Source: Candidatus Krumholzibacteriota bacterium (lineage in GTDB: Bacteria; Krumholzibacteriota; Krumholzibacteriia; JAJRXK01). From it: 64,000 nucleotides of DNA. This document shows positions 39,601 to 63,497 of the stretch, one piece after another (position 1 is the first letter of the stretch; the number at the start of each line of letters is the position of its first letter). The notes under the pieces were generated by a model. It did not search any database. It was not told the origin of the DNA and saw nothing but the letters and a program-made list of their open reading frames with translations. The translations under genes were made by a program, and so were the position numbers. Location: the NCBI GenBank assembly GCA_029262065.1, contig JAJDAC010000002.1:248001-312000 (forward strand), in the 5' to 3' direction.

Positions 39601-41363
39601 CGTATCGTACGGTAGCGCTGTATGAACACCGACAGGCGCGCGAAGAAGAGGCAAGCGCCCACGCCAACTGGAACGAGGCACTGGGGCTGTACGGCCAACT
39701 CATCACCAATTGGCCGGACCACGGAGAAACCCCAAGGTTCCACTACCTGGCCGGTGAGTGCGCGAGGGAATTGACCGATTTCGCCAGCGCCCTCGATCAC
39801 TACCGTGCCGCCGCGGCCTCCGACACGGCCAGTTTCCGTGAGGAAGCGGCCTGGGCCAGCGTGGCCGTCTGCGACACGTGGTACGAAACGTCGCGACCCG
39901 CCGGCGAACCCAACGCGGTCGGCGCCGATTCGCTGGCGACCCAGCTCATCGAGGAGGGACGCGCCTTCCTGACCAAACACCCGGCGGACAGCCGCGGGGC
40001 CGACATCCTCTGGCGCGAGGGAAACCTCTCGTTTGCCCACGGATGGCACGATGCGGCTGAAACCAGCCTACATGATTTCGTACGGGCCTATCCTCGTGAC
40101 GAGCGGGCGCCACGCGCGGCCCGCTTGCGTGCCGATTCGTTCTATCGTCGGGCCAGGTACCAGGACGCGGGTAGTGCCTACGAAGACGCGTTGCTGGTCT
40201 TGCGGGCCGCGGGCGAAGACTCGCTCGCCGCGCACGTGACCACGCTCATCCCCCACTCCTATTACAAGCACGCGGAATCGATCGCCGCCAGCGACTCCAC
40301 GGAAGGCCTGGCCAACGCCGCGGTTGCATTCGAGAACGTGGCCCAACGCTGGCCCGCGTTCGAGTTCTCACACCTGGCTCTGTATCAGGCGGGTCTGGGC
40401 CGGGCCAGTGCCGGTGAAGCCCCGCTGGCCGTGAGCGATTGGCAGCGTCTGATCGACACCTATCCCGAAAGCGAGTATCGCCAGGACTCGCTGCGTCAGA
40501 TCGCCCTTACCTGGGAAGCCGCGGGCCAGCCCCTGGCGGCCGCCCGCGCCTACGAGCGTTACTCGACGACATACCCCACCGAATCCGACGCGGCCGACGC
40601 GCTGATGAAGGCGGCCGATTTGCTGGAAGCGGGCGACGACCCAGTGGGCGCCGAGACCATACGCACCCAGTACCTGCAGCAGTATCCCGACGACTTCGAA
40701 ACGGCGCTGGAAATCCGTGAGAAACGGGCTCGTCGCGATCTGGCTCAGTTCGGCGCGTCTCCGGCGGGAATGGTGGCGCTGCTCGACCCTTCAGCCACGG
40801 TGCCGTCGGAACTGTCGCGCTACCTGACCCTGGCCAAGCAACATCCCGATCGCGCCGCCCCCGATATCCTGGCCCAGGTGGCATTCCTGGAGGCGGAACA
40901 GGAACTCGCGCGTTACACACAACTACGGCTCACGCAGCCGCTCGAACAGAGCCTGCAGCGTAAGCGCGATGCGTTGGACGCGACCCTGCAGAGCCTGGGC
41001 GCCTGCGCCCAACACTCAGTGGCCCCATGGGCCCAGGCCGCCGCGTATCGCGTGGGCGAAGCGCTCGTACATTTTGGCGACGCGCTGGTTCAGAGTGAGC
41101 GTCCGTCAGACCTGACTGGCGATGATCGACTGGCCTACGACGAGGTACTCGAAGAACAGAGCTGGGCATTCTACGACCGGGGCGAGGAAGCCTGGGCACA
41201 ACTACTACGCGAGCCCGGGTCCTCGGAAAGCGACGAAGTTCGCACGTGGCTCGAGAAGACACGGTCTTCGTTGTACCCCCGAGTGGCCCGCCGTTTCGCA
41301 CACCACCCCGAAGTTTCCTACCCGTTGGTTCCGGCGACGGAACCCGAAAACGCGGCACGGTAG
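36633..41363 (+). CDS. Giant periplasmic TPR protein
   Basis: 1,576 residues, the largest product in the window. A signal peptide (MQARSLLVLLAVNALALAGAQA) leads into TPR-like helical repeats over most of the length, with a coiled-coil region at ~385-465 (LERLGRSRRYFQRGADEIDSSL). Repeats include QYEKAAQGDDNEARAIALYKLGWSHF and ALDHYRAAAASDTASFREEAAW. Large periplasmic TPR proteins of this kind accompany the ExbB/ExbD/TonB-like Agl-Glt motors of myxobacteria. Here it precedes a TPR lipoprotein and such a motor on the same strand. No catalytic motif. Exact partner is unknown. Confidence 0.85.
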   Translation: MQARSLLVLLAVNALALAGAQASTTTTPETSVAIDWSDFNLRRGVYEWATGDTLGALEYLESGPSTGRAALLRAEAERRLGNRYDALRRQADQGEGFDAWIAYAQLLEHHRQLGTSDAPVPMAPANFADADFLSAVLRFERGDHAGARQQLESSAEGPWKAMRLQLRAQIAEAEGDDAWTWWRKLADHEPGAQGDRRLVDAARLRAAAYADDHQEDPAQWLELVEAASPLYARAQHMLGLVEVSAGNEAGLERLRAVAMSHPNYDGRADLLQALGGQALETSQFDDARHLFLQLDDEWSMRATELDRLGERVDLSDVWKQWERSWATDDVAWAHEPSLQLAIDAARDLKQAVPRTNDISTLPAPMPAAGFTAPVQLDDAEIRRDMRLTMERQHNEYLRAREERTLANELERLGRSRRYFQRGADEIDSSLRDLDASVARLDSVLATLEILLADLRAVRDDEIDRIATRGARLLALGTTNANYIRSFMHFYIDGPMGKRLRDLPEGIPHPSEILLEELELSGMIEDFVQVFSDRAPVRVQRSSDEIWEPRLMGAAPALAARAKEQQRWALAMAAAVDSSLAATTSSPQLLASQAALANLAANADSLQQRQNALRDVTLRDAIARTRANMDTRREGIDYGLAAAHYELTVAQTQADVPVASKPTAAAIEHLQRFLERYPDSHARGESRFRLADLLLLQARDEFHGRMANYLAARENGTSGSMAVPFLDYESALDLYRAILAEDTDFPHRDATLFHLGMILSDAVDPQAEEYLQELITSFPDAEFVQRAHLRLADNRFAQKNFVASAQQYEKAAQGDDNEARAIALYKLGWSHFNTDSFDQAAVAFGRLMDLYDADARFDTSVDLRGEARDDLIHALARGGGASAFLEHFDSQGTRDYEKSVLGGISQLMRTFALYDEATASDRLYLQKYATDPSALDAATRLIDTYERGFDKEQANEARLDVAQKFVPNGDWFETNVADSLRAQGLEFARTSYRTVALYEHRQAREEEASAHANWNEALGLYGQLITNWPDHGETPRFHYLAGECARELTDFASALDHYRAAAASDTASFREEAAWASVAVCDTWYETSRPAGEPNAVGADSLATQLIEEGRAFLTKHPADSRGADILWREGNLSFAHGWHDAAETSLHDFVRAYPRDERAPRAARLRADSFYRRARYQDAGSAYEDALLVLRAAGEDSLAAHVTTLIPHSYYKHAESIAASDSTEGLANAAVAFENVAQRWPAFEFSHLALYQAGLGRASAGEAPLAVSDWQRLIDTYPESEYRQDSLRQIALTWEAAGQPLAAARAYERYSTTYPTESDAADALMKAADLLEAGDDPVGAETIRTQYLQQYPDDFETALEIREKRARRDLAQFGASPAGMVALLDPSATVPSELSRYLTLAKQHPDRAAPDILAQVAFLEAEQELARYTQLRLTQPLEQSLQRKRDALDATLQSLGACAQHSVAPWAQAAAYRVGEALVHFGDALVQSERPSDLTGDDRLAYDEVLEEQSWAFYDRGEEAWAQLLREPGSSESDEVRTWLEKTRSSLYPRVARRFAHHPEVSYPLVPATEPENAAR

Positions 41364-41447
41364 GCGGCCCACGACTTGCAGAAATAGCCCGAACACGGCC
41401 CCCGCTACCAGCGCCGGGCCCACGCAATGTGAAACGACGAGGCATCG

Positions 41448-42374
41448 ATGGACATCGCGCTCAACATCGCTTCCCGATCGGCCCAGACTCGCGCTGGCGT
41501 TGGGGACTTGTCGACACGTTGCCGCGTGGCATGTCGCAATAGCGCGCCCAATGCAACATGGATGGCCGCGTTGTGCCTGTTGGTCGCGGCATGTGGTGGC
41601 CCGTCGGTGCAAACCGACCCCACGGAAATCGACACCGAGCTGACGCCCGAAAAGGTAGCGGCCCAGGTGGCCGAACATCGAGCGCGAGCCGTCGAGCAGC
41701 CCCACGAACCCTACTGGTTGTACAAGGCGGCCGAGACCCATTCCCGAGCCGGCCAATCCGTCGACGCTATTGCCGCGCTACGCGAAAGCCTGGCCGTCAA
41801 CGACAGCTACGAGCCATCGCTCTCCCTGCTCTCCAAGATCTACTACGTCTCCGGTCAACATCAGGCGGCTATCCAGCTGCTGGAAGATGTGCAGAGCCGG
41901 AACGGAACCCTGTCCGATGAACTACTGGCGGGCCTGGCCCTGAACTACGAGGCCCTGGGCGAATACGACACCAGCGATCCGCTGTTCGACACGTTGCGCC
42001 ACCGGGGATCCCGTGAATCTGCCGTGATCTATCACCTACTACAGGGTGAAAGCTTCCTCGAAGTTGGCGACCGTGCGTTTGCCGCGGTCGAAGCCAAACC
42101 GAACGTGGCCGCTAACCAGAACAACTTCGGCATTGCGTTGCTCTACCAGGGACGCCCCAAGGAAGCACGCGAGCGTTTCCTGCGAGCTTTGGAACTCGAC
42201 GCCGATCTGCCGGGCGCCATGTACAACATGGCCATCGTCGACAAGTTCTACTTCTTCGACGACGAATCCAGCCTCGAGTGGTTCACGCGGTATCAACAGA
42301 TTTCCGGTGATTTCGACCCCGACGGTCTCGCCGAGTTGCTGCAATTGGCTCCCGCAGAAGCGGTAGGGAGATAG
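41448..42374 (+). CDS. TPR lipoprotein (GltE-like context)
   Basis: 308 residues. An unusually long N-region (~38 residues) precedes a hydrophobic core and lipobox LLVAACGG (C49); a start at the inner ATG would be too short for a signal peptide, so the ATG at 41448 (GAGG upstream) is kept. Residues ~70-300 are TPR repeats (EPYWLYKAAETHSRAGQSVD, NFGIALLYQGRPKEARERFL). It precedes the motor genes by only two bases plus a small gene, and is likely an outer-membrane-tethered adaptor of the ExbB/ExbD/TonB complex. Confidence 0.82.
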   Translation: MDIALNIASRSAQTRAGVGDLSTRCRVACRNSAPNATWMAALCLLVAACGGPSVQTDPTEIDTELTPEKVAAQVAEHRARAVEQPHEPYWLYKAAETHSRAGQSVDAIAALRESLAVNDSYEPSLSLLSKIYYVSGQHQAAIQLLEDVQSRNGTLSDELLAGLALNYEALGEYDTSDPLFDTLRHRGSRESAVIYHLLQGESFLEVGDRAFAAVEAKPNVAANQNNFGIALLYQGRPKEARERFLRALELDADLPGAMYNMAIVDKFYFFDDESSLEWFTRYQQISGDFDPDGLAELLQLAPAEAVGR

Positions 42375-42376
42375 AT

Positions 42377-42625
42377 ATGTTTTCCGCACCCGCTCTGGCG
42401 CTGGCCCTTTGGTTGTCGTCCACCGGCGCGACCGGCCAGGCCCGAACTCTCGATGCTATCACCATCGAGGGTGAGATCGATATGCCCGAAGTGCTCTTCA
42501 TCACCGCACGCGATCAGTATCGCTACATGGATTACCTTCACCGTCGCTACGACAAGAGCATGGCCCAGTTGGGCCTCGATGTGCGCTTGCCACGGCGACT
42601 CGAGTTGCTGACCAAGGAGAAATGA
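42377..42625 (+). CDS. Small secreted protein of the TonB-motor operon
   Basis: 82 residues with AGGGAG six bases before the ATG. It has a signal peptide (MFSAPALALALWLSSTGATG-QA) and a compact domain, TITIEGEIDMPEVLFITARD followed by a basic helical tail. I recognise no named family. Its position between the TPR lipoprotein (2-base gap) and ExbB (1-base gap) argues for a role as a small periplasmic linker in the complex. Confidence 0.75.
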   Translation: MFSAPALALALWLSSTGATGQARTLDAITIEGEIDMPEVLFITARDQYRYMDYLHRRYDKSMAQLGLDVRLPRRLELLTKEK

Positions 42626-42626
42626 C

Positions 42627-43265
42627 ATGGATGCCTTGTCGACCGTCGCGTCCTTCTTCCGTAGCGGCGGACCGTTCATGTTCGTCATCATGGGCACCGC
42701 TGTCCTGATTCTGGCCATCGCCGCCGAACGCCTTTGGGTACTTTCCCGGGCGGGGGCGTTGAACCACGGAAAAATGATGAAGGACCTCATGCGTCACGTT
42801 CAGTCGGGCGATCTAAGCGCGGCTTCGCAGGTGGCCAAGAAGGTCAAGAGCCCGGCCGGGCGCGTGGCGTACGCCATCGTGTCCAACGGCACGAGCAACG
42901 AGGAAAGCCTCAACAACGCCGCCGATGGAGCCGCCGTCGTGGTGCTGCCGCCGCTTTCCAAGCGTCTGCCGCACCTGGGCATGTTGGCCAACGTGGCTAC
43001 GCTGCTGGGCCTGCTGGGTACCATCTTTGGTCTAACCCAGGCGTTCTCGGCGGTAGGCGCGGCCGACGCGTCGGAACGCTCGGCCTTCCTGGCCGCCGGT
43101 ATTTCGCAGGCCCTGAACACCACGGCATTCGGTTTGATGGTGGCCGTACCCGCCATGGTCATCCACGGCTTTCTGGTGGGCAAGGTCGACGCCATCGTCG
43201 AACAGACCGATGAGGTAAGCGTCCGCCTGATCCGGGTCATGACCGGCCGTAGCGACAACTTCTAG
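42627..43265 (+). CDS. MotA/TolQ/ExbB proton-channel protein
   Basis: 212 residues with three transmembrane helices: ~15-38, ~118-142 and ~160-185. The family core is LPHLGMLANVATLLGLLGTIFGLTQAF and the third helix ISQALNTTAFGLMVAVPAMV. It forms the pentameric stator channel with the ExbD proteins that follow. Conversion of proton motive force to movement of the TonB-like partner is the known job of the family. Resembles AglR-type genes in gene order. Confidence 0.92.
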   Translation: MDALSTVASFFRSGGPFMFVIMGTAVLILAIAAERLWVLSRAGALNHGKMMKDLMRHVQSGDLSAASQVAKKVKSPAGRVAYAIVSNGTSNEESLNNAADGAAVVVLPPLSKRLPHLGMLANVATLLGLLGTIFGLTQAFSAVGAADASERSAFLAAGISQALNTTAFGLMVAVPAMVIHGFLVGKVDAIVEQTDEVSVRLIRVMTGRSDNF

Positions 43266-47056: not shown

Positions 47057-47177
47057 TGCCGGCGTATCCTCCCCCCTGATTCTAGCGAGGAAGCCGAGGT
47101 TGCCCTAGCGCTCAATGATTCGAGCTGGCCCGGAACTTGAAGTCGCGACCGGGAACAACGGAGCCACGGAAGGAACC

Positions 47178-49055
47178 ATGCGCAACCAAGCCCGAAATCA
47201 GAACTCGTCCCGGCCAAGCCGGAACGACCGCGACCCCTGGCGGGTCGGAAATCCCATGCGAATCCTGCTGGGCCCCCTGCACTTCCCGGCGCACTGGGAG
47301 TACATGGAGGGCTCGTTCGATGACCATGACTGCAAGACATTCGGCCCGCACGCCCGATCGGACATTCAGGTCCCCAGCATGGCGTCCGTCGACCACATTC
47401 TGGCGCAGCTCCCCCAGGGTTGGTCGCCCGACCTGATCCTGATCTGGCGCCCCGAGTACGGAAGCCTGCCGCCCGACCTGGATCAGGCCCCGGTGCCCGT
47501 GGTTACCCTGACCAACGATTGGTACCTGGCCTTCGCCGAGTGTATGACGGCAGCCGCCTTCTCGAACGCCACCGTCACGGGGAGTCGAGGCGAGCCCGTA
47601 TTCCGACGCGCGGGGGTGGATCGCGTGTTCAACCTTCCCATGCTCGGCTACCAGCCCGGCGTCGACGGCGTTGTGGGCAAAGATGAGCGCGACATCGACG
47701 TGTTCAGCGCCACCAACCCCAGCTGGTCCATTCATACGCAACGCATCCAGGATTTTGGCTGCCTGCTGGATCTGCCGGCCGACGTGAAAGTGGCGTTGCG
47801 GAGCCACCTGACACGAGCCCAGTACAACGACCACCTTTCGCGCTCGAAGATCTTCGTCAACCGCACGGTCATTGGCGAGATCAACATGAAGATCTACGAA
47901 GTCACGGCCACGCAAACCTGCCTGTTCGTAGAGGAAGACAACCTCGACGTTCGCAAGTACCTGATTCCCGATGAATCCGTGGTGCTGTTCAACCGGGAAA
48001 ACCTGATCGAGAAGATCACCTACTATCTGGCCCACGACGAAGAACGACAGGCGATCGCGCGTCGTGGGCACGAGGCCATGCAAGGGTTTTCGTACCGGGC
48101 CAATATGAATCGGATCGTGCTGGAGATGCAGCGTGTGGGACGCAACGAGCTCATGGCCTCAGGCCGCGAAACCGCACGCACGCCGGCACGGGAGCGTCGA
48201 TTGCGCCACCTGGCATACTCGCTGAATCGCTCTGAGTCGGACGTTCCCGAGCTGCTCGAACGGGCCCAGCCAACGTCAGACGACGTGGTCGAGCAGTATC
48301 TTTGGTTGTTGTGTCACGCCAACGCGCACACCCAGACCGAACGCATCGATCTAAAGGGCGTGGATTTCATTCCCCTGCCGGATCTGGTGGACGCTTTCGA
48401 TCAACTGCGTGCGAAGCACCCTGACTATTTCCCGCTGCTCTACTCGCGGGCCTTCATCACGCAGTACGTCGACCGGGAAAAAGCCCTGGTGGCTCACGAT
48501 GAGGCCGTGGCGGGGCTGCGCCGTGGCATCGACATTCCGCTCGGTGGCAGCGCCGCGTATCTGTGGGAGACCGACCCTTGCTGCGTGTTGCAACGCTCGG
48601 CCTGGGAAGCAGTGGAGCGCCACGAAGATCCCACCGAGGCGCTTCGCCCCCGGCTGATCTACTACGTCCGTCTGAACCAGGCCAAGCTTCTGTTGTTGAT
48701 GGAACGATTTGATGACGCAGAACAGGCCCTCCTACAGGCCATTGATGCGTTCGCCGGACACCTCGAAGCACGCCGCATTCTGGCGCAGTTGTTGACGATG
48801 CAACGTCGCGACGACGCGGCGATTGAACATTGGTACGAACTACTGCGGGCAAACCCGATAGACGGCGGTGGCCACTCGGTATTGTTCGAAGTGTTGATTC
48901 GAAACCAACGCACCGACCAGGCCTACGAGCTCATGCGTCGATACAACCGACTGGCGAAGGTCGTGGGCGACCGAAAAACACAGACCCACACCGGCGGCCT
49001 GTTGGCTCGAATGCATCCGTTGGTCGAGGCCGTGGGGACGAGCGGACGACGCTGA
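47178..49055 (+). CDS. CgeB-like glycosyltransferase with TPR-type C-terminus
   Basis: 625 residues from the ATG at 47178 (AAGGA three bases before). Residues ~20-340 look like a GT-B protein of the CgeB/Glyco_trans_1_2 group: a C-terminal donor-binding segment includes SKIFVNRTVIGEINMKIYEV, ATQTCLFVEEDNLDVRKYL and the FNRENLIEKITYYLAHDEER helix. Residues ~400-620 are helical TPR-like repeats (RLIYYVRLNQAKLLLLMERFDDAEQALL). TPR-linked glycosyltransferases build surface polysaccharides or modify proteins. It precedes the phosphoramidate-type cluster by 231 bases on the same strand and may add the sugar that is later modified. Confidence 0.8.
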   Translation: MRNQARNQNSSRPSRNDRDPWRVGNPMRILLGPLHFPAHWEYMEGSFDDHDCKTFGPHARSDIQVPSMASVDHILAQLPQGWSPDLILIWRPEYGSLPPDLDQAPVPVVTLTNDWYLAFAECMTAAAFSNATVTGSRGEPVFRRAGVDRVFNLPMLGYQPGVDGVVGKDERDIDVFSATNPSWSIHTQRIQDFGCLLDLPADVKVALRSHLTRAQYNDHLSRSKIFVNRTVIGEINMKIYEVTATQTCLFVEEDNLDVRKYLIPDESVVLFNRENLIEKITYYLAHDEERQAIARRGHEAMQGFSYRANMNRIVLEMQRVGRNELMASGRETARTPARERRLRHLAYSLNRSESDVPELLERAQPTSDDVVEQYLWLLCHANAHTQTERIDLKGVDFIPLPDLVDAFDQLRAKHPDYFPLLYSRAFITQYVDREKALVAHDEAVAGLRRGIDIPLGGSAAYLWETDPCCVLQRSAWEAVERHEDPTEALRPRLIYYVRLNQAKLLLLMERFDDAEQALLQAIDAFAGHLEARRILAQLLTMQRRDDAAIEHWYELLRANPIDGGGHSVLFEVLIRNQRTDQAYELMRRYNRLAKVVGDRKTQTHTGGLLARMHPLVEAVGTSGRR

Positions 49056-49286: not shown

Positions 49287-50084
49287 ATGAAAGCCATTCT
49301 GCTTGCCGCCGGCCAAGGAACGCGCCTGCGCCCGCTTACCGATGATCGACCCAAATGCATGGTCGAAGTCGACGATAGACCTCTGCTGCACTGGCAGCTC
49401 GACACGCTTGTCGAGGCCGGTGTCGACGACATCGTGGTGGTCCGCGGCTACCAGCGAACGCATCTCCAGGGACCCGGCTTCCGCACCATCGACAGCACGC
49501 GGTGGGAAACCACCAACATGCTCGAGAGCCTTCGCTGTGCTCGCGCCGAGATCAGCGGTGAGATCCTGGTGTGCTACACGGACATTCTGTACGAAACGTC
49601 GGTGATCCAGACCGCGCGCGCATCGTCGGCCGATGTAGGAGTAGTCATCGACCACGACTGGGAAGCCCTCTGGCGACGACGCATGGATGACCCATTGGAC
49701 GACGCCGAGACGCTGCGCCTCGACGCGAACGGTCGCATCGTCGAAATTGGTCAGCGCGCGCACGCGCTGGCACCGATCGACGGCCAGTTTGTTGGCGTGT
49801 TGCATTTCTCGGCCGCCGGTTCCGAACTGCTACGCCATACGCTCGACGAGATCTCGCGCGAAGATGAGCACCACGGAAGCATCTTCGGAGGCCGCTACGA
49901 TCTCAAGAACGCGTACACCACCGACCTCCTCACCGAATGGATCGATCAGAACGTCCCCGTGATGGAAATTCCCATCGCCGGAGGATGGACGGAAATCGAC
50001 TCGCAACGCGACCTGCAGGTAGCCCAGGAACTCATGGCCGAAGGTCAACTGGCCATGGGAGCCGCCACGGGGTCGCTTCGGTGA
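49287..50084 (+). CDS. Sugar-phosphate/choline-type nucleotidyltransferase (Cj1416-like candidate)
   Basis: 265 residues, one GT-A-like nucleotidyltransferase domain. The nucleotide-binding motif is LLAAGQGTRLRPLTDDRPKCMVEV (residues 5-28) with catalytic R13 and K23; the metal-binding Asp is in VCYTDILYE. Relatives include LicC-type choline-phosphate cytidylyltransferases and the CTP:phosphoglutamine cytidylyltransferase Cj1416. Together with the next three genes, it best fits activation of a phosphorylated small molecule (perhaps phosphoglutamine) with CTP. The stop overlaps the next start (GTGA), so the two are coupled. Substrate is inferred from neighbours. Confidence 0.85.
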   Translation: MKAILLAAGQGTRLRPLTDDRPKCMVEVDDRPLLHWQLDTLVEAGVDDIVVVRGYQRTHLQGPGFRTIDSTRWETTNMLESLRCARAEISGEILVCYTDILYETSVIQTARASSADVGVVIDHDWEALWRRRMDDPLDDAETLRLDANGRIVEIGQRAHALAPIDGQFVGVLHFSAAGSELLRHTLDEISREDEHHGSIFGGRYDLKNAYTTDLLTEWIDQNVPVMEIPIAGGWTEIDSQRDLQVAQELMAEGQLAMGAATGSLR

Positions 50085-53000
50085 GAGCCATCGTACTGGG
50101 CGCGGGTCGCGGCTTGAGTCTGCAACCCGAAGCCACCACCCCCAAATGTCTGCTCGAGGGCATCGCCGGTTGGCGTGTCCTCGACTGGATACTGAACGCC
50201 CTGAACGAAGGCGGCGGTGTCCGCGACGTGGTGTTCATTGGTGGCGATGCGATCGGCGAGGTACAGAAAGCCTATCCCGACCTTCACTACGTTTTCAATC
50301 CACAGTGGTACAACCAGCACGTCGTAGGGTCCTTGTTCGTCGAACCCGATGAGCTGCGTGGACCGTTTCTATTTTCCTACTCGGACGTGGTGTACCGACC
50401 GGCCACGGTGCAATCACTCATGGACGCGCCCGGCGATATCGTCCTGACCGTTGACCGCGGTTGGCGCGAGCGCTTCGTCGGCCGTTCCCAGCTGCTGCTG
50501 CAAGATGCAGAGAAGGTGGCCGCCCCCGACGGTCGGGTTTTGCGACTGGGCAAGGACCTGGACCTGGACGACGACATCGTTGGCGAATTCATCGGGCTGG
50601 CCAAGTTCAGCGAGCGCGGGACACAGGCCCTGAAACAGGTCCACGAAGGGCTCTCCGTCATCTACGGACAACGCGAATATCGCGGTCGGAAGAATCTGGC
50701 CAACGCGTTCCTTTCAGACCTCATCCAGGAAATGATCGACCAGGGGTTTGAGGTGCGAACCCACGTGATCGATGGCGGTTGGGCCGAGCTGGACGTACCC
50801 GAAGATCTCAGTCAGTTCGTTTTCGGAACGAAGGCCGAGACCCTGGAACGGCTGCGCCCGCTCATGCGACACGCCACGATCGCGCGCGGCACGCACCTGC
50901 AGGTTGGCCAGTGGTTGAACGATCCCGCCGCGTGGGCACAATCTTTGGCGCTTCAATTCGAGGGCCAACCACTGGCCGTGCGCAGCAGTGCGCTGGCTGA
51001 AGATCAATCAACCACCAGCAATGCGGGTCGGTACCACAGCGTGCTCGACGTCGAGGGCGGAAACGCCGTGGCCATTGCCGAGGCCGTCGATACCGTGGTG
51101 GCCAGCTACGAGCGCGATGGAGCCCGGCCCGACGACCAGATCCTCATTCAACCGTTTCTCGCCGACGTGATCATGAGCGGCGTACTCATGACCCGTGATC
51201 TCGACTCGGGCGCTCCCTACCTGGTGGTGCACTACGACGACCAGTCGGGAAGAACGGACGCGGTCACCGCCGGCACCGGTGAGTCGCATACGGTGCGCGT
51301 CGCAAGGAGCGCGGCGGCGAACTTCGCGGCTGAACAGGGATCGGCCTTCGCGCCCCTCATCGCAGCCGTCTCGGAACTGGAGGCCATGACCGGATCCGAT
51401 ACGCTGGACGTGGAGTTCGCGATCGACCGCGAGCAACAGCTGCACGTGCTTCAGGTGCGACCGATTGCCGCGCGCGCCGGTTGGACCAACCTTGAACCCC
51501 GCGCCCACGACGACGAACTTCAACGCGTCCGGGCGTTCCTGGAACAACGCCTTTCGGGCGCCGCCACGATATTCGGTCAGATGCCCGACTGGAATCCAGC
51601 CGAGATGATCGGGGCCTTCCCCGACCCATTGGCTCGCTCACTGTACGAAAGCCTGATTACCGACACTACCTGGCGGCGTGCCCGCGCACGATTGGGATAC
51701 ACCGATCCCGGACCGCATCCTCTTTTGGTGGAACTGGCCGGACGCCCGTATGTCGACGTGCGCCTGAGTGTGACGAATCTATTGCCGGCTACGCTGGACA
51801 TTGAAGTACGCGAACGAATCGCCGATGCCGCCATCGCCACCCTGCGCGCCAAGCCCCACCTTCACGACAAGATCGAGTTCGACGTGTTGGCCACCTGCTT
51901 CGATTTCGATCTCAGCCGCGCGCTCGACCAACTCGAGGCCCATGGTCTGCCGAAAGACGACCGGCGGCCCTACGAAGACGCGCTTACCACCCTGACCATG
52001 CGCATTCTGCTGAACGCAAATGAGTCGTTGGCGTGGGCCGAGAATGCGCACGCGACATTGCAGGACCGGGTTGATTCGCTGATGGGCGACACGATCACCG
52101 ACCGGGCCCAGCGAATCGCCCAGCTTCACGAATCGACGATCGAGCTGGGCACCCTACCGTTCGCGGTCAACGCCCGCCTGGCTTTCGTCGGAACCTCGCT
52201 GCTGCGCTCGCTGCGCCGCAAGGACCTGTTGTCCGGTGAACAGTGGGACGCCTTCTTTGCCTCCACGTCGACCATTACCACCGAGTTCGTTCAGGCCCTG
52301 AACGGCGCCCGAAACGACGACGACGCCCGACGTGGATTTCTTGCCCGCTTTGGTCACCTGAGACCGGGCAGCTACGACATCCGATCGCCTCGCTACGATC
52401 AAGCGCCCGAAGCCTACCTCAACGGGCAGGCGACCACGGGCGAAGACACACTTCCATTCGAACTGGACGAGTCCCAGCATGCAGCCATCGACCGTCTACT
52501 GCGTCGGCACGGACTCCCGGTAGACAGCCACGGCCTGTTCAGCTTCGTGCGCACGGCCGTAGCGGCCCGGGAGGCATCGAAATTCGCTTTCTCGCGCGCG
52601 CTAAGCGGCATGCTCGAACTGATCGCCGAATGGGCGGAACAGCTGGGGCTGTCGCGTGAAGAGGCGGCCATGCTGGAAATCAGTGACGTGCTCGCGTGGA
52701 AAGCACGGCCAGCGCCGCGAAACCTGGATTCGCGCTTGTTGCGATTGGTGGCCGACCGACGACTTCACCGACAGGTGCAAGCGCGTGTCTCCTTGCCAAT
52801 CCTGATCCGTGACGCCGCCAGCGTTGACTGGTTCGAGGAAGATCAAGCGCGCCCCAACTTCGTAACCCAGCGCCGGGTACGCGGCGCACCGCTTCGGCTG
52901 GATGCCAATACCCCATCGGAAGACCTGGACGGACGCATTGTCGTGATCGAGGGAGCGGATCCGGGCTACGACTGGATCTTCGGTCATCGCATCGCCGGCC

Positions 53001-53164
53001 TCATGACCCGCTTTGGCGGGGCCAATTCCCACATGACCATCCGGTGCGCGGAGTTTGGAATTCCGGCCGCCATCGGCTGCGGTCAGGTTCTGTTCCAGCG
53101 AGCCAAGAAGGCAAATTTGCTCGAGCTGGATTGCCAAGGAGAGAGTATCCGTGTCCTCGAATGA
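50081..53164 (+). CDS. Nucleotidyltransferase fused to PEP-synthase-like kinase (L-glutamine kinase-like)
   Basis: 1,027 residues from the GTG at 50081; longer frames to 49937 lie inside the previous gene. Residues 1-245 are a second nucleotidyltransferase (GAGRGLSLQPEATTPKCLLE, SYSDVVYRP). Residues ~275-465 are a PPDK-N/ATP-grasp domain (LAVRSSALAEDQSTTSNAGRY; DVEFAIDREQQLHVLQVRPI). A helical region follows. Residues ~935-1027 are the swivelling phosphohistidine domain with H984 in FGGANSHMTIRCAEFGIPAAIGC. The kinase part has the domain order of PEP synthase and of Cj1418, which makes glutamine phosphate from ATP. The fusion would couple kinase and cytidylyltransferase in one chain. Confidence 0.88.
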   Translation: MRAIVLGAGRGLSLQPEATTPKCLLEGIAGWRVLDWILNALNEGGGVRDVVFIGGDAIGEVQKAYPDLHYVFNPQWYNQHVVGSLFVEPDELRGPFLFSYSDVVYRPATVQSLMDAPGDIVLTVDRGWRERFVGRSQLLLQDAEKVAAPDGRVLRLGKDLDLDDDIVGEFIGLAKFSERGTQALKQVHEGLSVIYGQREYRGRKNLANAFLSDLIQEMIDQGFEVRTHVIDGGWAELDVPEDLSQFVFGTKAETLERLRPLMRHATIARGTHLQVGQWLNDPAAWAQSLALQFEGQPLAVRSSALAEDQSTTSNAGRYHSVLDVEGGNAVAIAEAVDTVVASYERDGARPDDQILIQPFLADVIMSGVLMTRDLDSGAPYLVVHYDDQSGRTDAVTAGTGESHTVRVARSAAANFAAEQGSAFAPLIAAVSELEAMTGSDTLDVEFAIDREQQLHVLQVRPIAARAGWTNLEPRAHDDELQRVRAFLEQRLSGAATIFGQMPDWNPAEMIGAFPDPLARSLYESLITDTTWRRARARLGYTDPGPHPLLVELAGRPYVDVRLSVTNLLPATLDIEVRERIADAAIATLRAKPHLHDKIEFDVLATCFDFDLSRALDQLEAHGLPKDDRRPYEDALTTLTMRILLNANESLAWAENAHATLQDRVDSLMGDTITDRAQRIAQLHESTIELGTLPFAVNARLAFVGTSLLRSLRRKDLLSGEQWDAFFASTSTITTEFVQALNGARNDDDARRGFLARFGHLRPGSYDIRSPRYDQAPEAYLNGQATTGEDTLPFELDESQHAAIDRLLRRHGLPVDSHGLFSFVRTAVAAREASKFAFSRALSGMLELIAEWAEQLGLSREEAAMLEISDVLAWKARPAPRNLDSRLLRLVADRRLHRQVQARVSLPILIRDAASVDWFEEDQARPNFVTQRRVRGAPLRLDANTPSEDLDGRIVVIEGADPGYDWIFGHRIAGLMTRFGGANSHMTIRCAEFGIPAAIGCGQVLFQRAKKANLLELDCQGESIRVLE

Positions 53165-53912
53165 AGAGTTCATCAAGATCGCCGTTACCCAACGTATTAC
53201 CGAAGCCTCGCGCTACGTCGAGCGACGCGACGCGCTCGCCCACGATTGGATTGCCACCCTGCGAGGGTGGAAAGCCCAGCCACTCCTGGTGCCCAATACG
53301 TGGCGTGCACCCACGCGCTTCGTCGACAGCTGGGGCGTGCAGGCGATCTTGCTGACGGGCGGAAACGATCCGATCACCCCGGGCGTGGCCGCCACGGGCC
53401 TATTGGCGCCCGAGCGTGACGAGACCGAACGGGAACTCATTGCCTACGCGATCACCCGGGGCATTCCCATCATCGGCATTTGCCGGGGAGCGCAGGTACT
53501 CAACCTGTACTTCGAAGGCACGCTCTCGGAAGTGGAAGGCCACCGGGCCACGACTCATCGCGTGCGGGTGGCGGACTGGATCGGTCTGGAACGACAGGAG
53601 CCAGCCGTTGATTCGGCCCTGAGTGCCACCGGACGCGCCAACGGAAGCCGTTTGAGCGACAACGAAGTGGAAGTGAACAGCTACCACCAACTGGGCATGA
53701 CCTCGAACGATCTATCCAATGAACTGAGGGCATTCGCCTGGGGCGACGACAACACCGTGGAGGCGTTCTTCCACCCGCACATGCCCTTGCTTGGCGCGAT
53801 GTGGCACCCCGAACGGCCCGCGCCACCCCACGCTGGTCTCAATCGATTGTTCGGGCAAGTCCTACGCGGCGCCATGCCATGGACGGCCGCCGCGACCACC
53901 GAGGCAAAATGA
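53151..53912 (+). CDS. Class I glutamine amidotransferase/peptidase C26 (Cj1417-like amidate hydrolase candidate)
   Basis: 253 residues from the GTG at 53151, with AAGGAG upstream and 14 bases of overlap with the kinase gene. The catalytic triad is intact: C111 in GIPIIGICRGAQVLN, and H219 and E221 in MWHPERP. The family includes gamma-glutamyl-gamma-aminobutyrate hydrolase (PuuD) and Cj1417, which cuts CDP-glutamine to cytidine diphosphoramidate and glutamate. Placed directly after a PEP-synthase-like kinase, the second role is the better fit. No synthetase domain for a typical amidotransferase is attached. Confidence 0.88.
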   Translation: MSSNEEFIKIAVTQRITEASRYVERRDALAHDWIATLRGWKAQPLLVPNTWRAPTRFVDSWGVQAILLTGGNDPITPGVAATGLLAPERDETERELIAYAITRGIPIIGICRGAQVLNLYFEGTLSEVEGHRATTHRVRVADWIGLERQEPAVDSALSATGRANGSRLSDNEVEVNSYHQLGMTSNDLSNELRAFAWGDDNTVEAFFHPHMPLLGAMWHPERPAPPHAGLNRLFGQVLRGAMPWTAAATTEAK

Positions 53913-55348
53913 GCTACCCCTACGCAGAACCGAAACTTCAGAGCGAGTACAAGCCCTACAGCTATTCTACGTTCATCGGGCGGGAGTTGGTGGACGAGTA
54001 CCGCACGGCCCGTCGCGCGCAACGCGAGTCGCTGACCGCCGGAGCACCACCGGGTGCCGTCGATCATTGCTTCGATACGCTGCACACGCAGTGGGATCGC
54101 GACACTCAACGTCGCCCGCTCGAACTCGCTCGGTTTCTCGACGATCTCATTGGCCCGGTATTGCCCGGGGTAGACGACGTGCCCGCATTGTCGGATCCCG
54201 CTCGCAATCGGCGCAATTCGAGCGGCGTGACCTGGGCCAGGAATACGGTGGATACCCTGCTGGCCAAGTACGAGGCGTTCGGCCGTATCTACCCTGCCTA
54301 CGACGGGTCGTGGCGCCGAATGAACGGCGACGAGCCCAACGATCCACCGCTTCTGGCCCGACTGGCCGCGGCCGCGGCCTGGCGTATGTCGGTGACCGAG
54401 CCGGCCGACCGAGCGGCCGCGGTGGCCACGCTGAACGTACTCCTGAAGCTGCACGACCGCATTGCGGCGCAACAAACCAAGGGCTACCAACCCGACGCCA
54501 CCAGCGCCCGCTATCTGCGCCGCTCGATCGATATCGAGATGCGCATGGTCGAATGCGTGGCGCGCTGGACCTCGGCGGTAAGCGAGTACGACTCGCTCAT
54601 CGAGAGCAGCATCCCCGCCTCCATGGAAGACACGCGGGCACGGCCCTTGGCGTCCAGTGCGCTGATCGCGTATCCGGGCCTGCGATCGCGTGCGTATCTC
54701 CAGACCATGGTGCGGCACCAGGTAGCGCCGTCGGTGGTGATTCAACTGGGCTCCGAGTGCCAAACCCAATGCACCACGACGTCGCTGGGCTTCGACCCCC
54801 AACAGACCCTGGCCCAGACCGCCGCTCACGCGGAAATACCGCTGATCGAAATCGACACGCGGGACGTCAACGATCCGCAGGTGACCGAACTCGTGCGCGA
54901 GCGCGATTGGGCTATCTACAGCGGTGGCGGTGTCGTCAGTGCCCAAACGCTGGATTCCCCCGTCCGGTGGCTGCACATACACCCGGGACGCCTTCCCGAC
55001 ATGCGAGGCAGCACCTGTCTACATTATGGATTGCTTCTGGAGGGGGCAGTTTGGGCATCGGCCTTCGTCATGGAGCCTACGCTGGATACTGGCCGCATCG
55101 TGGCCCGGGCCCCCGTACCGGTTCCGGCTGGTCTTGCGCCGGCCGACCTGGACCATGCGTTCGACGCCCACGCCCGGGCGGAGGTGCTGATCCGGGCTCT
55201 ACGGGTTCTGGGCGCGAATTCCCACTGGGAGGGGGTGCGACAGACCACCGCTCCCCACCGCAACTACTTCATCATCCACCCTGTCCTGAAACACCTGGCG
55301 GTTCTGTCGACCCTCCAGGACGAGGTGATCCGTGTCGATCGTCATTAG
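53909..55348 (+). CDS. Formyltransferase-like protein with unknown N-terminal domain
   Basis: 479 residues from the ATG at 53909 (GAGG upstream, ATGA overlap with the previous stop). The C-terminal half (~260-479) has the methionyl-tRNA formyltransferase-type signature: WLHIHPGRLPDMRGSTC with H358, and LDTGRIV with D393. The usual Asn of this motif is His356. Residues 1-250 are helical with several Asp and Arg clusters and match no family I know. Such proteins use 10-formyl-tetrahydrofolate, so the product may be an N-formylated sugar or amidate. The gene overlaps the next by 17 bases. Confidence 0.75.
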   Translation: MSYPYAEPKLQSEYKPYSYSTFIGRELVDEYRTARRAQRESLTAGAPPGAVDHCFDTLHTQWDRDTQRRPLELARFLDDLIGPVLPGVDDVPALSDPARNRRNSSGVTWARNTVDTLLAKYEAFGRIYPAYDGSWRRMNGDEPNDPPLLARLAAAAAWRMSVTEPADRAAAVATLNVLLKLHDRIAAQQTKGYQPDATSARYLRRSIDIEMRMVECVARWTSAVSEYDSLIESSIPASMEDTRARPLASSALIAYPGLRSRAYLQTMVRHQVAPSVVIQLGSECQTQCTTTSLGFDPQQTLAQTAAHAEIPLIEIDTRDVNDPQVTELVRERDWAIYSGGGVVSAQTLDSPVRWLHIHPGRLPDMRGSTCLHYGLLLEGAVWASAFVMEPTLDTGRIVARAPVPVPAGLAPADLDHAFDAHARAEVLIRALRVLGANSHWEGVRQTTAPHRNYFIIHPVLKHLAVLSTLQDEVIRVDRH

Positions 55349-56417
55349 CATTCACGAGCCGTGGCACTATCGAAATTGGGAGCCGGTGTTGCGTCACGCG
55401 GAGCCCAACGAGATCAGTCTCGTGGTCACCCCCTGGATGCACCGGGGAGAAGATCCCGGCGTCCAACAGCAAGCGGTCGATCAAACCCTGGCGTGGCTGA
55501 AACAACACGGTGTCGCGGCCGCGTGCAACATCGAACGCGAGCCCCACGTCCTGGCTACGTTGGCCATTGCCGGACGTTCGGTGGGATATCAGTACTCCCG
55601 TCAGGTTCGCATGCTCTACGCCGTGATCAGCAAGCAATACACGTACAGCGAGAAAAACAAGGAATACGACGCGGTCATGGTGGCGTCGACGTTTGGACGC
55701 AACCTCCTGGCCAAGCACCAGGTGCGGGCGCAGGTGGTTGGGTATCCGAAACTCGACGACTACTTCAATGGTGTCATGACGCGCGCATCCGTGCGCGAGC
55801 AATTGGGCCTGACGGCCGACGAGACGATCGTCCTGTACGCGCCCACTCTGGCCAGCGACTCACCGGTGGAGCGATACGCGCACGCGCTGTCCGAGATCGA
55901 CCCCTCGATCCGGGTCATCGCCCAGCTACACCCCGTAAGTTACATTTCCGAACCAGAACGCTTCGCTTCTTTGCTACCCGACCGGGTCGAGGTGGTACCC
56001 GAGCTCGAGGGTGGAATCCACTGGATCGCAGCGGCCGATGCCGTCATCAGCGACTACAGCGGGGCCACGTTCGAGGCCGCGGCCATGGACAAGCCGGTGA
56101 TACTGCTGGAGAACCCCGACCTCGAAATGACCGAGGACGTGGAGCGTGCCCACCGGGATGTGGGAATTCGCGTGGACGATCCCGCCGACCTCGCCAAAGC
56201 CGTCGACGGTGCTCTGGCTGAGCCCGAGCGGTTCGCTGATCGACGGGAATACTACCGGGAAACCTTTTTTGAATACCGGGGAAAGGCGGGCGAGCGAGCT
56301 CTGGAAGCCCTTCGCGGCTTCAGCCAGGAGGCCCGTGATGCCCGCCTGAGAGACACCGAGCTGATCTATGATCGGATGCGCAAGTTGGAGCAGACGCTGG
56401 GAATTTCCTCAGTCTGA
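55332..56417 (+). CDS. CDP-glycerol glycerophosphotransferase-like GT-B enzyme
   Basis: 361 residues from a GTG at 55332. The C-terminal half has the family hallmark AVISDYSGATFEAAAMDKPVIL and upstream RVIAQLHPVSYISEPERF, as in TagB/TagF-like enzymes that transfer a phosphate-linked group from CDP donors. The N-terminal half is less conserved. As the last gene of the cluster, it is a good candidate for the transferase that places the CDP-activated group on a glycan. A teichoic acid role is unlikely in a diderm. Confidence 0.85.
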   Translation: MSIVISIHEPWHYRNWEPVLRHAEPNEISLVVTPWMHRGEDPGVQQQAVDQTLAWLKQHGVAAACNIEREPHVLATLAIAGRSVGYQYSRQVRMLYAVISKQYTYSEKNKEYDAVMVASTFGRNLLAKHQVRAQVVGYPKLDDYFNGVMTRASVREQLGLTADETIVLYAPTLASDSPVERYAHALSEIDPSIRVIAQLHPVSYISEPERFASLLPDRVEVVPELEGGIHWIAAADAVISDYSGATFEAAAMDKPVILLENPDLEMTEDVERAHRDVGIRVDDPADLAKAVDGALAEPERFADRREYYRETFFEYRGKAGERALEALRGFSQEARDARLRDTELIYDRMRKLEQTLGISSV

Positions 56418-60515: not shown

Positions 60516-62276
60516 ATGAAGCGCAACTTCGGCCAGGTCCTGATCGAAAAGGGACACCTCGACGCGTCGCAGCTGGCCAAGGTGGCTGGCCCCGTCCACG
60601 GCGACCTGGAGCTGGCCCAAGCGATCGTAGAAGCGGGGCTGGTGGACGCCAAGTCCGTTCTCGAAGCCCGCGCAGAAGCCCTGGGCGTTTCCTGCATCGA
60701 GATCAATCCGTACAGCATCGACCCTGCCATCGTCGAGGTCGTACCCGAGGCAATCGCGCGACGCATCCGCGCGGTGCCGCTGTTTCGCGTGGGCAACGAT
60801 CTGACCCTGGCCATGGTAGACCCCTCGGACGTCATTGCCATCGACGAAGTACGCGATGCCACGGGCTGTGATGTACTCCCGGTCCTGGCGCCGCAAGCCG
60901 ACATTGAAACGGCCATCCAGCACTACTACGGCGTGGACAATCTAATACGCGATCTGGTGGAGGCAGCCCAGCTCGCCAGCGCCGTTCCCGACTCCCGGCC
61001 CGAGGAAAAGGAAGTGGACCTGGCTGAGGATGCCGGCGACGACACGCCCCTGGTTCGTATCGTCAACCTCATCATCTTGAAGGCCATCCGTCGGGGGGCC
61101 AGCGACATCCATATCGAACCCGACGAAGACGGAGTGCGCGTGCGCTACCGCGTCGACGGGCGCCTCGAAGCCGACGAGATGTTTCCGCCCTCGCTGCAGG
61201 CGGGCATTGTCAGTCGCATCAAGATCATGGCCGATCTGGACCTGGCCCAGAAGCGACTGCCCCAGGATGGCCGCATCAGCCTACGGGCCGAAGGACGACG
61301 AATCGACTTCCGCATCAGCACCCTACCGACGGTGCGTGGCGAGAAGACGGTCATGCGCCTGCTCGATACCGGCAGCACCGTAGCCACCCTGGAAGAGTTG
61401 GGTCTACAACCGGCGGCCCTGGCGCAATGGCGACGGCTGATCGAGCAACCGAACGGAATCATCCTGGTCACCGGCCCCACGGGCAGCGGAAAGACCACGA
61501 CCCTCTACTCGTCGTTGGCCGCCATCAACACCCTCGATCGCAACATCGTCACGGTCGAGGATCCCGTGGAATACGATTTCCCCGTGATCAACCAGGTGCA
61601 GGTGAACACCAAGGCCGGCCTTACCTTCGCAACCGCACTGCGCAGTATCCTCCGCCAGGACCCGAACGTGGTCATGGTGGGCGAGATCCGCGACGCCGAC
61701 ACCGCCACCATCGGTATCCGGGCGGCACTCACCGGCCACCTCGTGTTGTCGACGCTGCATACGAACGACGCCAGTAGTGCGGCGACCCGGCTCATCGATA
61801 TCGGTGTGGAACCATACCTGGTGGCCAGCGCCCTCAAGGGAATCCTGGCGCAGCGACTGGTGCGCCGCATCTGCACCGACTGCCGAACTGCCCACGAATC
61901 GGTCCCCAGCGTGGGGATGCCCGACCACGTAGTCGAATGGTTGGAACGAAACGAATTTCAGTCGTTCGTGGGCAAGGGCTGCCGCCACTGCGGCGACACC
62001 GGATTCCGCGGGCGAGTGGCCATCCACGAGCTGCTCGTGGTGGACGAAGACATCGAACGCGCGATCGTGCGCGGCGCTCCGGTCAACGAGCTGCGCCGGC
62101 TGGCCCGGCAAGCCGGCATGGTGGATCTGTTCGGCGATGGCCTACACAAAGCCGCCGCGGGACTGACGACGGTGGAAGAGATCCTGGTCGCCACCCGCAT
62201 GGAAGAAGCCGAGGCCACCGAAGACACCGCGACGGCACCCCCCGCGCCCGAACCCGCGCTGGCGCCAGTGGAATAG
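60516..62276 (+). CDS. GspE/PilB-family assembly ATPase
   Basis: 586 residues. An N-terminal MshEN-type domain (~1-160) is followed by the AAA+ ATPase with Walker A GPTGSGKTTTLYSS, an Asp box VTVEDPVEYDFP, Walker B-like DPNVVMVGEIRDADTA and a His box HLVLSTLHTNDA. A tetracysteine zinc site lies near ~455-500 (CTDCRTAHES ... GCRHCGDTGFRG). It powers assembly of type II secretion pseudopili or type IV pili from the cytoplasmic side of the membrane. The GspF and GspG genes follow. Confidence 0.93.
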   Translation: MKRNFGQVLIEKGHLDASQLAKVAGPVHGDLELAQAIVEAGLVDAKSVLEARAEALGVSCIEINPYSIDPAIVEVVPEAIARRIRAVPLFRVGNDLTLAMVDPSDVIAIDEVRDATGCDVLPVLAPQADIETAIQHYYGVDNLIRDLVEAAQLASAVPDSRPEEKEVDLAEDAGDDTPLVRIVNLIILKAIRRGASDIHIEPDEDGVRVRYRVDGRLEADEMFPPSLQAGIVSRIKIMADLDLAQKRLPQDGRISLRAEGRRIDFRISTLPTVRGEKTVMRLLDTGSTVATLEELGLQPAALAQWRRLIEQPNGIILVTGPTGSGKTTTLYSSLAAINTLDRNIVTVEDPVEYDFPVINQVQVNTKAGLTFATALRSILRQDPNVVMVGEIRDADTATIGIRAALTGHLVLSTLHTNDASSAATRLIDIGVEPYLVASALKGILAQRLVRRICTDCRTAHESVPSVGMPDHVVEWLERNEFQSFVGKGCRHCGDTGFRGRVAIHELLVVDEDIERAIVRGAPVNELRRLARQAGMVDLFGDGLHKAAAGLTTVEEILVATRMEEAEATEDTATAPPAPEPALAPVE

Positions 62277-62285
62277 GTGATCCAG

Positions 62286-63497
62286 ATGCCCATGTTCCAC
62301 TACGTAGCCATGGATGTCCACGGCCAGGAAACCGCCGGCGCCATCGAGGGGCCCAGCCGCAATTGGGTCAGTGAGCGCCTGGCCCAGGAAGACCTGGTTC
62401 CCCTGGACATTGAAGAACGCGCCACCAGCGTTACGCTTCTCGACCACATCCGGCAGATCTTGCCGGTGGGCGTGACCGACCTGTCGCTGTTCAGCAGCCA
62501 GTTCGCGCTGATGATCGATACTGGTCTGCCCATCCTGACCGCTCTCGACCTGTTGGCCGACAACACCACCAAAACCCGTCTGAAGGTTGCGCTGGAAGAA
62601 ACGGCGTCGTCCATCCGCGACGGTAACTCGCTGCATCAGTCTTTGCAGGCCACGACCGTATTCCCCGACATCTATATCAACATGGTGAAAGCCGGGGAAA
62701 CCGGAGGCACCCTGGTCGAGGTCATGCGCCAACTTTCGTCGTACCTCGACCGAGAGGCCGAGCTGCGGGGCAAGGTGAAGAGCGCCATGGCCTACCCCCT
62801 GTTCCTCATCGTCTTGGCGACGGTCGTGGTCACGTTTCTCATGGTAGCCATCATTCCCCGGTTTACCCAGATCCTGGACAACCTGAACGTCCCGCTACCA
62901 CTGCCCACTCGCATTCTGGTGGCCATGAGTGCGTTCCTGGTGGCGCACTGGCCCTGGATCCTGTCGGCCGTGGGTCTGACCGCGATAGGAATTTTCGTCC
63001 TGTTCCAACGCGAGGATTTCCGCCGTCGGCTGGACACCTTCTTGCTGAAGGTGCCCTTGGCGGGAGACCTCGTGCGCAAGAACAGCTTGGCTCGCTTCGG
63101 GTACGTGTTGGGGTCACTGCTGGCCGGCGGCATTTCCATCGTCGATGCGTTGGAAGTTGCCCAGGCCACTTGCGGCAATCGACGCCTGGCCATCGCCATT
63201 GGCGAGGCCCGGAAAAAGGTGATCGGCGGCAAGAGCATATCGGAAGCGCTCGAGTCGACGCGGGCCATGCCCGCCCTCTTGATCCAGATGGTGTCCATTG
63301 GAGAAGCCACTGGAAATCTGGATCAAGTTCTTACCCGGGTGTCCGATATCTACGACGAGCAAGTCGATCGCGTCACCGCCACGATGGTGAGCATGATCGA
63401 GCCGGCTCTGATCGTGGTATTGGGGGGAGTCGTGGGGTTTATCGCCCTTTCCCTCGTTCTACCCATGGTCAAAGCGGTTTCGGCGATCGGTGGTTGA
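62286..63497 (+). CDS. GspF/PilC-family inner-membrane platform protein
   Basis: 403 residues from the ATG at 62286 (AGGTGA upstream); a GTG directly after the previous stop at 62277 is the alternative. Two GspF domains (~65-190 and ~265-390) each start with a helical hairpin, and the membrane helices lie at ~165-190, ~215-240 and ~370-395. Family segments are ALDLLADNTTKTRLKVALEE, INMVKAGETGGTLVEVM and MVSIGEATGNLDQVL. It anchors the ATPase and the pseudopilus. Confidence 0.92.
   Translation: MPMFHYVAMDVHGQETAGAIEGPSRNWVSERLAQEDLVPLDIEERATSVTLLDHIRQILPVGVTDLSLFSSQFALMIDTGLPILTALDLLADNTTKTRLKVALEETASSIRDGNSLHQSLQATTVFPDIYINMVKAGETGGTLVEVMRQLSSYLDREAELRGKVKSAMAYPLFLIVLATVVVTFLMVAIIPRFTQILDNLNVPLPLPTRILVAMSAFLVAHWPWILSAVGLTAIGIFVLFQREDFRRRLDTFLLKVPLAGDLVRKNSLARFGYVLGSLLAGGISIVDALEVAQATCGNRRLAIAIGEARKKVIGGKSISEALESTRAMPALLIQMVSIGEATGNLDQVLTRVSDIYDEQVDRVTATMVSMIEPALIVVLGGVVGFIALSLVLPMVKAVSAIGG

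Follow-up and report, generated by a model that had tools for sequence, protein, structure and literature searches.

The five-gene operon at positions 49287-56417 of the DNA stretch analysed here (hereafter the window: 64,000 nucleotides of contig JAJDAC010000002.1, assembly GCA_029262065.1, from a Candidatus Krumholzibacteriota bacterium) probably makes and uses cytidine diphosphoramidate, with the phosphoramidate being moved to a surface glycan by the enzyme of the last gene. P-N bonds are rare in biology. As far as its protein families indicate, the cluster represents a variant form of the pathway that makes the O-methyl phosphoramidate (MeOPN) of the Campylobacter jejuni capsule (Cj1415-Cj1418, with the transferases Cj1421/Cj1422). 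It has the families of the three-enzyme core in common with that pathway, whereas the cytidine diphosphate (CDP)-amidate kinase is absent and a two-domain protein (DN-DC) and a TagF-type enzyme are present. The genes, A to E, all lie on the + strand and overlap by 4, 14, 4 and 17 bases, which confirms the five tightly coupled genes with overlaps of 4-17 bases reported in a preliminary description of this DNA. Domain calls for all five were checked by Pfam and NCBIfam profile searches, which agree with them except for a weak Formyl_trans_N match in gene D.

The kinase lies in gene B (50081-53164, GTG start, 1027 amino acids), which encodes a nucleotidyltransferase (NTase)-like domain of about residues 1-242 followed by the kinase of residues 243-1027. 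The kinase part matches the NCBIfam model NF004508 (PRK05849) over its full length (model positions 6-789 of 789), at 819 bits against a cut-off of 501. In contrast, the competing families, i.e., phosphoenolpyruvate (PEP) synthases, PigC and rifampin phosphotransferase (Rph), all score at most 46 bits, where the cut-offs are 598 upward for the PEP synthase models and 999 for Rph (33.9 bits). These scores led us to reject a PEP synthase or rifampin phosphotransferase, which the preliminary description had named as the nearest relatives that would undo its proposal. The kinase part consists only of an ATP-grasp domain (PPDK_N) and a mobile domain with the catalytic His (PEP-utilizers), and has no PEP/pyruvate barrel. 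An alignment of 12 relatives shows that the motif ADPG[YF]DW...GG.NSHM.IR is kept around the catalytic His; gene B reads ADPGYDW...GGANSHMTIR, with the His at position 984. Residues 243-1027 of gene B are probably an L-glutamine kinase.

The preliminary description also noted an NTase fused to this kinase. An NTase-like domain is indeed present, but it is degenerate and has lost the GxGxR part of the signature. Nearly all other fused kinases have lost most of the signature, while the copies of the window and of locus L035 keep some residues. The idea that both NTases, A and the copy fused in B, are working enzymes was rejected on account of this motif loss. Since the fused domain is without a nucleotide-binding signature, only gene A looks like a working equivalent of Cj1416.

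Gene A (49287-50084, 265 amino acids) encodes a CTP-type NTase, with a Pfam match to NTP_transf_3 (2.9e-16) and an intact signature (GxGxR..PK, D99 and EID motifs) that includes the active-site residues Arg13, Lys23, Asp99 and Asp238. Its closest solved relative is the CTP:phosphocholine cytidylyltransferase 1JYK (1.3e-15), and specificity for phosphoglutamine is a prediction. Proteins annotated as phosphocholine cytidylyltransferase also stand beside plasmid-borne kinases of the family, and are mostly 35-39% identical to gene A (30% in Agrobacterium vitis). Gene A is probably a working phosphoglutamine cytidylyltransferase of the Cj1416 type.

Gene C (53151-53912, GTG start, 253 amino acids) encodes a class I amidotransferase/C26 protein. 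Its best NCBIfam match is NF045546, the gamma-glutamyl-CDP-amidate hydrolase with the activity of Cj1417 (6e-32), at 111 bits, which is below the equivalog cut-off (250). Against the same model, C26 proteins from three more plasmid loci score 75-127 bits; one of these loci is that of the Smac51 plasmid (L040), which has the full Cj1415-1418-like set. Cys111, His219 and Glu221 are retained, as they are in essentially all 71 aligned C26 proteins, and gene C is probably the equivalent of Cj1417. The assignment of the first three families to the steps of Cj1418, Cj1416 and Cj1417, as originally proposed, stands at the family level.

Gene D (53909-55348, 479 amino acids) was originally described as formyltransferase-like. 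This holds for the fold of its C-terminal half, DC (about residues 240-479), but the protein is a fusion with a helical N-terminal half, DN (about residues 1-235), and the catalytic Asn of formyltransferases is a His. Pfam Formyl_trans_N covers only residues 351-430, below the cut-off (E = 0.014), and the fmt model TIGR00460 gives E = 2e-7. The AlphaFold model of DC (pLDDT 89.7) has the formyltransferase fold, with a Foldseek match to ArnA (E 1.6e-12, TM 0.62) and also to Fmt. DC thus has the overall fold and the His and Asp of the catalytic triad (His358 and Asp393) in common with ArnA, Fmt and sugar N-formyltransferases. It differs from them in that the Asn is replaced by His356 (H-x-H instead of N-x-H), and in a distinct C-terminal signature in the branch of the window. 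Almost all of the 37 DC rows examined have this His; L122, a distant outlier, has Asn. Because of this replacement N-formylation is unproven, and the N-formylated product suggested earlier is one option only.

DN has no Pfam match above cut-off, no PDB match and no fold match. Its model (pLDDT 82) is an all-helical domain, in which Tyr, Arg, Glu, Lys and Asp residues are invariant. In two relatives of the same family (G002 and G003), DN and DC are encoded by separate, overlapping genes; they are fused in the window and in Paraglaciecola arctica (L099). Both this split and the change of Asn to His rule out that gene D is a single canonical formyltransferase. Across 80 genomes of the phylum, clear DN matches are limited to the three genomes with this operon. 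A weak match in G003:C4 has no other pathway gene nearby and was set aside. Elsewhere, DN is fused to an APS kinase (APSK) in two loci, and the gene order APSK-DN-DC-kinase-C26-NTase is frequent, for instance in L097, which suggests that DN and DC act on the nucleotide side of the pathway. Gene D was not found on plasmids.

Gene E (55332-56417, GTG start, 361 amino acids) encodes a TagB/TagF-type protein resembling CDP-glycerol glycerophosphotransferases (PF04464, 4.5e-17, 62.5 bits versus a cut-off of 22.1). It is the only PF04464 protein in the 5.77-Mb genome. Like TagB and TagF, it has the HP (H200) and SDYSG (D241) motifs of this domain family, and it differs from them in being encoded with CDP-amidate genes. 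One TagF-like domain has been shown to release CMP from CDP-glycerol (PMC11924219). By analogy, E is the best candidate to move the phosphoramidate from CDP-amidate to a glycan.

Two steps of the MeOPN pathway were looked for as well. A genome-wide search gave no match to PF01583 (APS_kinase) at E <= 0.001, in an assembly that is 95.6% complete, in agreement with the earlier remark that a kinase like Cj1415 is missing. O-methyltransferases of the Cj1419/Cj1420 type are encoded neither in A-E nor in the glycosyltransferase gene upstream, the genes that this search covered. Because both the Cj1415 and the methyltransferase features are missing from the places searched, we do not class the cluster as an MeOPN pathway.

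The following sequence of reactions would be consistent with these families. The kinase of B would convert glutamine to N-phosphoglutamine, which A would join to CMP from CTP, yielding CDP-glutamine. C, whose nearest characterised family is this very hydrolase, would then hydrolyse off glutamate and leave CDP-NH2, or CDP-amidate. As the genome has no APS-kinase-like enzyme, the 3'-phosphorylation by Cj1415 would be skipped. Most likely, D alters CDP-amidate or its nitrogen ahead of transfer. E, by analogy with the TagF-like domain, would release CMP and place the phosphoramidate on a surface-glycan hydroxyl, with CDP-NH2 or a D-modified form of it as the donor. The degenerate NTase-like domain of B is probably a non-catalytic partner, which may dock A or pass on phosphoglutamine, a labile compound. 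The pathway would thus end in a glycan that carries a phosphoramidate without a methyl group. Such non-methylated phosphoramidates have been reported in the lipopolysaccharides of Xanthomonas and Shewanella, from which they are known chemically (PMC3907429).

The same five genes occur in the same order in G002 and G003, at 36-54% protein identity (39-41% for C, and about 28-36% for the N-terminal part of D). These two genomes carry the variant found in the window, which differs from C. jejuni in that its genome has no CDP-amidate kinase and its operon no methyltransferase, and in the fusion of an NTase-like domain to the kinase, the extra DN-DC protein and a TagF-type transferase candidate. 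In one of these relatives the flanks of the window operon (up to 9 kb) show no conservation, and in the other it is marginal. Chance is excluded as the source of the five-gene grouping.

In a 2022 review, glutamine kinase was termed specific to C. jejuni (PMC9561416). In our scan, which covered 84,980 species, the kinase family is encoded by at least 552 loci of bacteria and archaea. Fourteen plasmid records also carry it. Hence, the occurrence of pathway genes outside Campylobacter, pointed out in the preliminary description, is far wider than the window. The best 80 of these loci cover many bacterial phyla, as well as archaea that include Haloferax, Nanoarchaeota and Pacearchaeota. The kinase is found together with C26 and cytidylyltransferase genes in the archaeal loci L085 (Haloferax elongans), L066 (a halophilic archaeon), L050 (Pacearchaeota), L053 (Nanoarchaeota) and L076 (an uncultured archaeon).

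Gene associations were counted in 91 loci, comprising G002, G003, G075, the plasmids, one phage record and 80 loci of named genomes. This census was based on open reading frames (ORFs) without curation of genes by hand, and absences in short loci are uncertain because of contig ends. The kinase occurs with a C26 gene in 81 of the 91 loci and with a Cj1416-like NTase in 78, while an APS-kinase-like gene is present in about 54. The two enzymes that were first thought to be new in this setting turned out to be recurrent partners, with a formyltransferase-like gene in 34/91 and a Glyphos-type gene in 22/91 related loci. DC accompanies DN in 27 of the 28 DN loci, and Glyphos in 20 of 22 loci. In tree-aware sign tests on a rough FastTree kinase tree, the association of DC with DN holds up (median p 0.002), while that of DC with Glyphos is marginal (median p 0.03). 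That DC excludes a methyltransferase was rejected, as the loci showed no association.

Fusions of pathway parts recur in these loci. An NTase-like domain is fused to the kinase in 21 ORFs besides that of the window, APSK to the kinase in three, APSK to DN in two, and the kinase to C26 in one. The APSK-like gene is found in 5 of the 25 fused (NTase-extended) loci versus 50 of the 66 others (p 1.9e-6 if loci are treated as independent). However, the fusion changes only four times on the kinase tree, and the link is not significant because only three independent pairs are available. We therefore rejected replacement of APSK by the NTase fusion as a law, and retain it as a tendency only. In L114, L119 and L124 (labelled Acidobacteriaceae, Bryobacteraceae and Gammaproteobacteria), an APS kinase stands N-terminal to the kinase, where others have the NTase-like domain. 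The kinase-C26 fusion is one 1011-aa ORF (652-3687 of L044, MT837632.1) on a short, unannotated fecal contig with an unverified phage label; it is a further fusion of consecutive steps.

Other clusters resemble that of the window to different degrees. A Vibrio alfacsensis plasmid (L041, NZ_AP024168.1) comes close, with an N-terminally extended kinase, a C26 gene, a cytidylyltransferase and a gene of the CDP-glycerol glycerophosphotransferase family. Glycosyltransferases follow, and an APS-kinase-like gene was not found, as in the window. It differs in gene order, and no DN-DC was found in the 20-kb locus. Clusters of Alteromonas, Pseudomonas and Aeromonas (L097, L092, L095, L094, L079 and L105) combine the kinase, C26, cytidylyltransferase, DN, DC and a Glyphos-type gene in a single run; unlike the window, they keep the APS-kinase-like gene, their kinase is unfused, and DN and DC are separate. 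Plasmids of Azospirillum (L039) and Smac51 (L040) carry the kinase, C26, NTase, APS kinase and a methyltransferase, which is the Campylobacter set.

Further plasmids carry the kinase in other settings. Those of the nodulating bacteria Cupriavidus taiwanensis (L043) and Microvirga lotononidis (L045) have a divergent branch of the kinase, with no C26 or cytidylyltransferase partner in the 20-kb locus; in L043 the kinase lies near nifK. In an A. vitis plasmid (L042, NZ_AP023281.1, 6691-14003), the kinase, C26 and cytidylyltransferase genes are followed by a LysE exporter and a CDP-alcohol phosphatidyltransferase, in a neighbourhood that also holds a tRNA-synthetase-like ligase, a TauD-type dioxygenase and an asparaginase. 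This arrangement suggests a pathway to a phosphoramidate that is a small molecule or a lipid.

Several points weigh against a cytidine diphosphoramidate pathway that ends on a surface glycan. Sequence does not reveal the substrates of enzymes, and CDP-amidate as the donor for E is a guess from family chemistry, for a protein with no PDB sequence match at E <= 0.01 and hence no solved close relative. The hydrolase score of gene C is below the equivalog cut-off. NF004508 is a model without a functional name, in which we place Cj1418 presumptively, from gene context. The association with loss of APSK reflects few independent events. In addition, no polysaccharide/capsule or acceptor-glycan locus adjoins the operon and PF05159 was not found in the genome; the capsule of the preliminary description is therefore an extrapolation. 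Wza-type export genes (PF02563) are present on other contigs of the genome.

These points leave room for other explanations, which differ in where they depart from the proposed pathway. With the same CDP-amidate core, E might be a glycerophosphotransferase or another sugar transferase that serves the acceptor, and transfer of the phosphoramidate might fall to D or to an enzyme encoded elsewhere. The characterised PF04464 members use CDP-glycerol, many phosphoramidate loci are without any Glyphos-type gene, and the fusion of DN to APSK in two loci, with DN/DC beside APSK in many, indicates that D could handle the nucleotide donor itself. Yet the genome encodes no other protein of E's family, genes D and E share 17 bases, and the fold of DC is that of formyltransferases, not of a phosphotransferase. 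We consider this explanation rather unlikely. Less likely again is a small molecule or other nucleotide-activated amide as product instead of a glycan decoration, with a kinase that may use another amide. The lack of an adjoining polysaccharide locus would fit, as would the A. vitis core, whose neighbours are a CDP-alcohol phosphatidyltransferase, LysE exporters and an amino acid-tRNA-ligase-like gene. However, several related loci lie among glycan genes, the hydrolase family matched by C is specific for gamma-glutamyl-CDP-amidate, which implies glutamine, and the window operon has a TagF-type transferase but no exporter. Finally, PPDK_N and PEP-utilizers domains also occur in the PEP synthase and rifampin phosphotransferase families, and an ordinary kinase of that kind would make the cluster a nucleotide-sugar or teichoic-acid-like operon without P-N chemistry. 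The gap between 819 and at most 46 bits, the absent PEP/pyruvate barrel and the C26 gene in 81 of 91 kinase loci, which this explanation leaves unexplained, make it extremely improbable.

The operon might stand for a second type of phosphoramidate pathway, widespread and without the Cj1415 step. In such a pathway, a two-domain enzyme, composed of DN and a rewired formyltransferase fold, would alter CDP-amidate before a TagF-type enzyme transfers it. This generalisation is tentative, and we think it somewhat less probable than its opposite. If true, the surface group would be an undescribed P-N modification, for example an N-acylated phosphoramidate.

With at least 552 kinase-family loci in bacteria and archaea, cell surfaces may commonly be decorated with phosphoramidates. 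Phages use these groups as receptors in C. jejuni (PMC3907429). For the lipopolysaccharide phosphoramidates of Xanthomonas and Shewanella, the loci suggest the type of gene set to seek. Three parts without a known role also stand out from these loci: DN, DC with its H-x-H motif, and the degenerate NTase domain that precedes the kinase.

Upstream of the operon, and separated from gene A by a gap of 231 bp, lies a + strand gene for a glycosyltransferase with a TPR region (47115-49055; Glyco_trans_1_2, 6.9e-17). It is a possible, unproven maker of the glycan acceptor, and none of the 91 scanned loci, among them L035 and L036, holds a relative of it. Base composition gave no signal of recent transfer, with a GC content of 0.60-0.65 across the operon and its flanks. 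Downstream lie a zincin-like metallopeptidase gene and type II/IV secretion-type genes, whose content is unrelated to the operon. Among the latter, the region 60516-63497 encodes a type II/IV secretion ATPase (T2SSE/MshEN) and T2SSF proteins that are PilB/PilC-like, a pilus or secretion locus. Further upstream, the region 36633-43265 encodes two TPR proteins, one of them a TPR-repeat protein of 1576 aa, and holds a TolQ/ExbB-like gene; together these resemble an envelope set of the TonB-Tol type.

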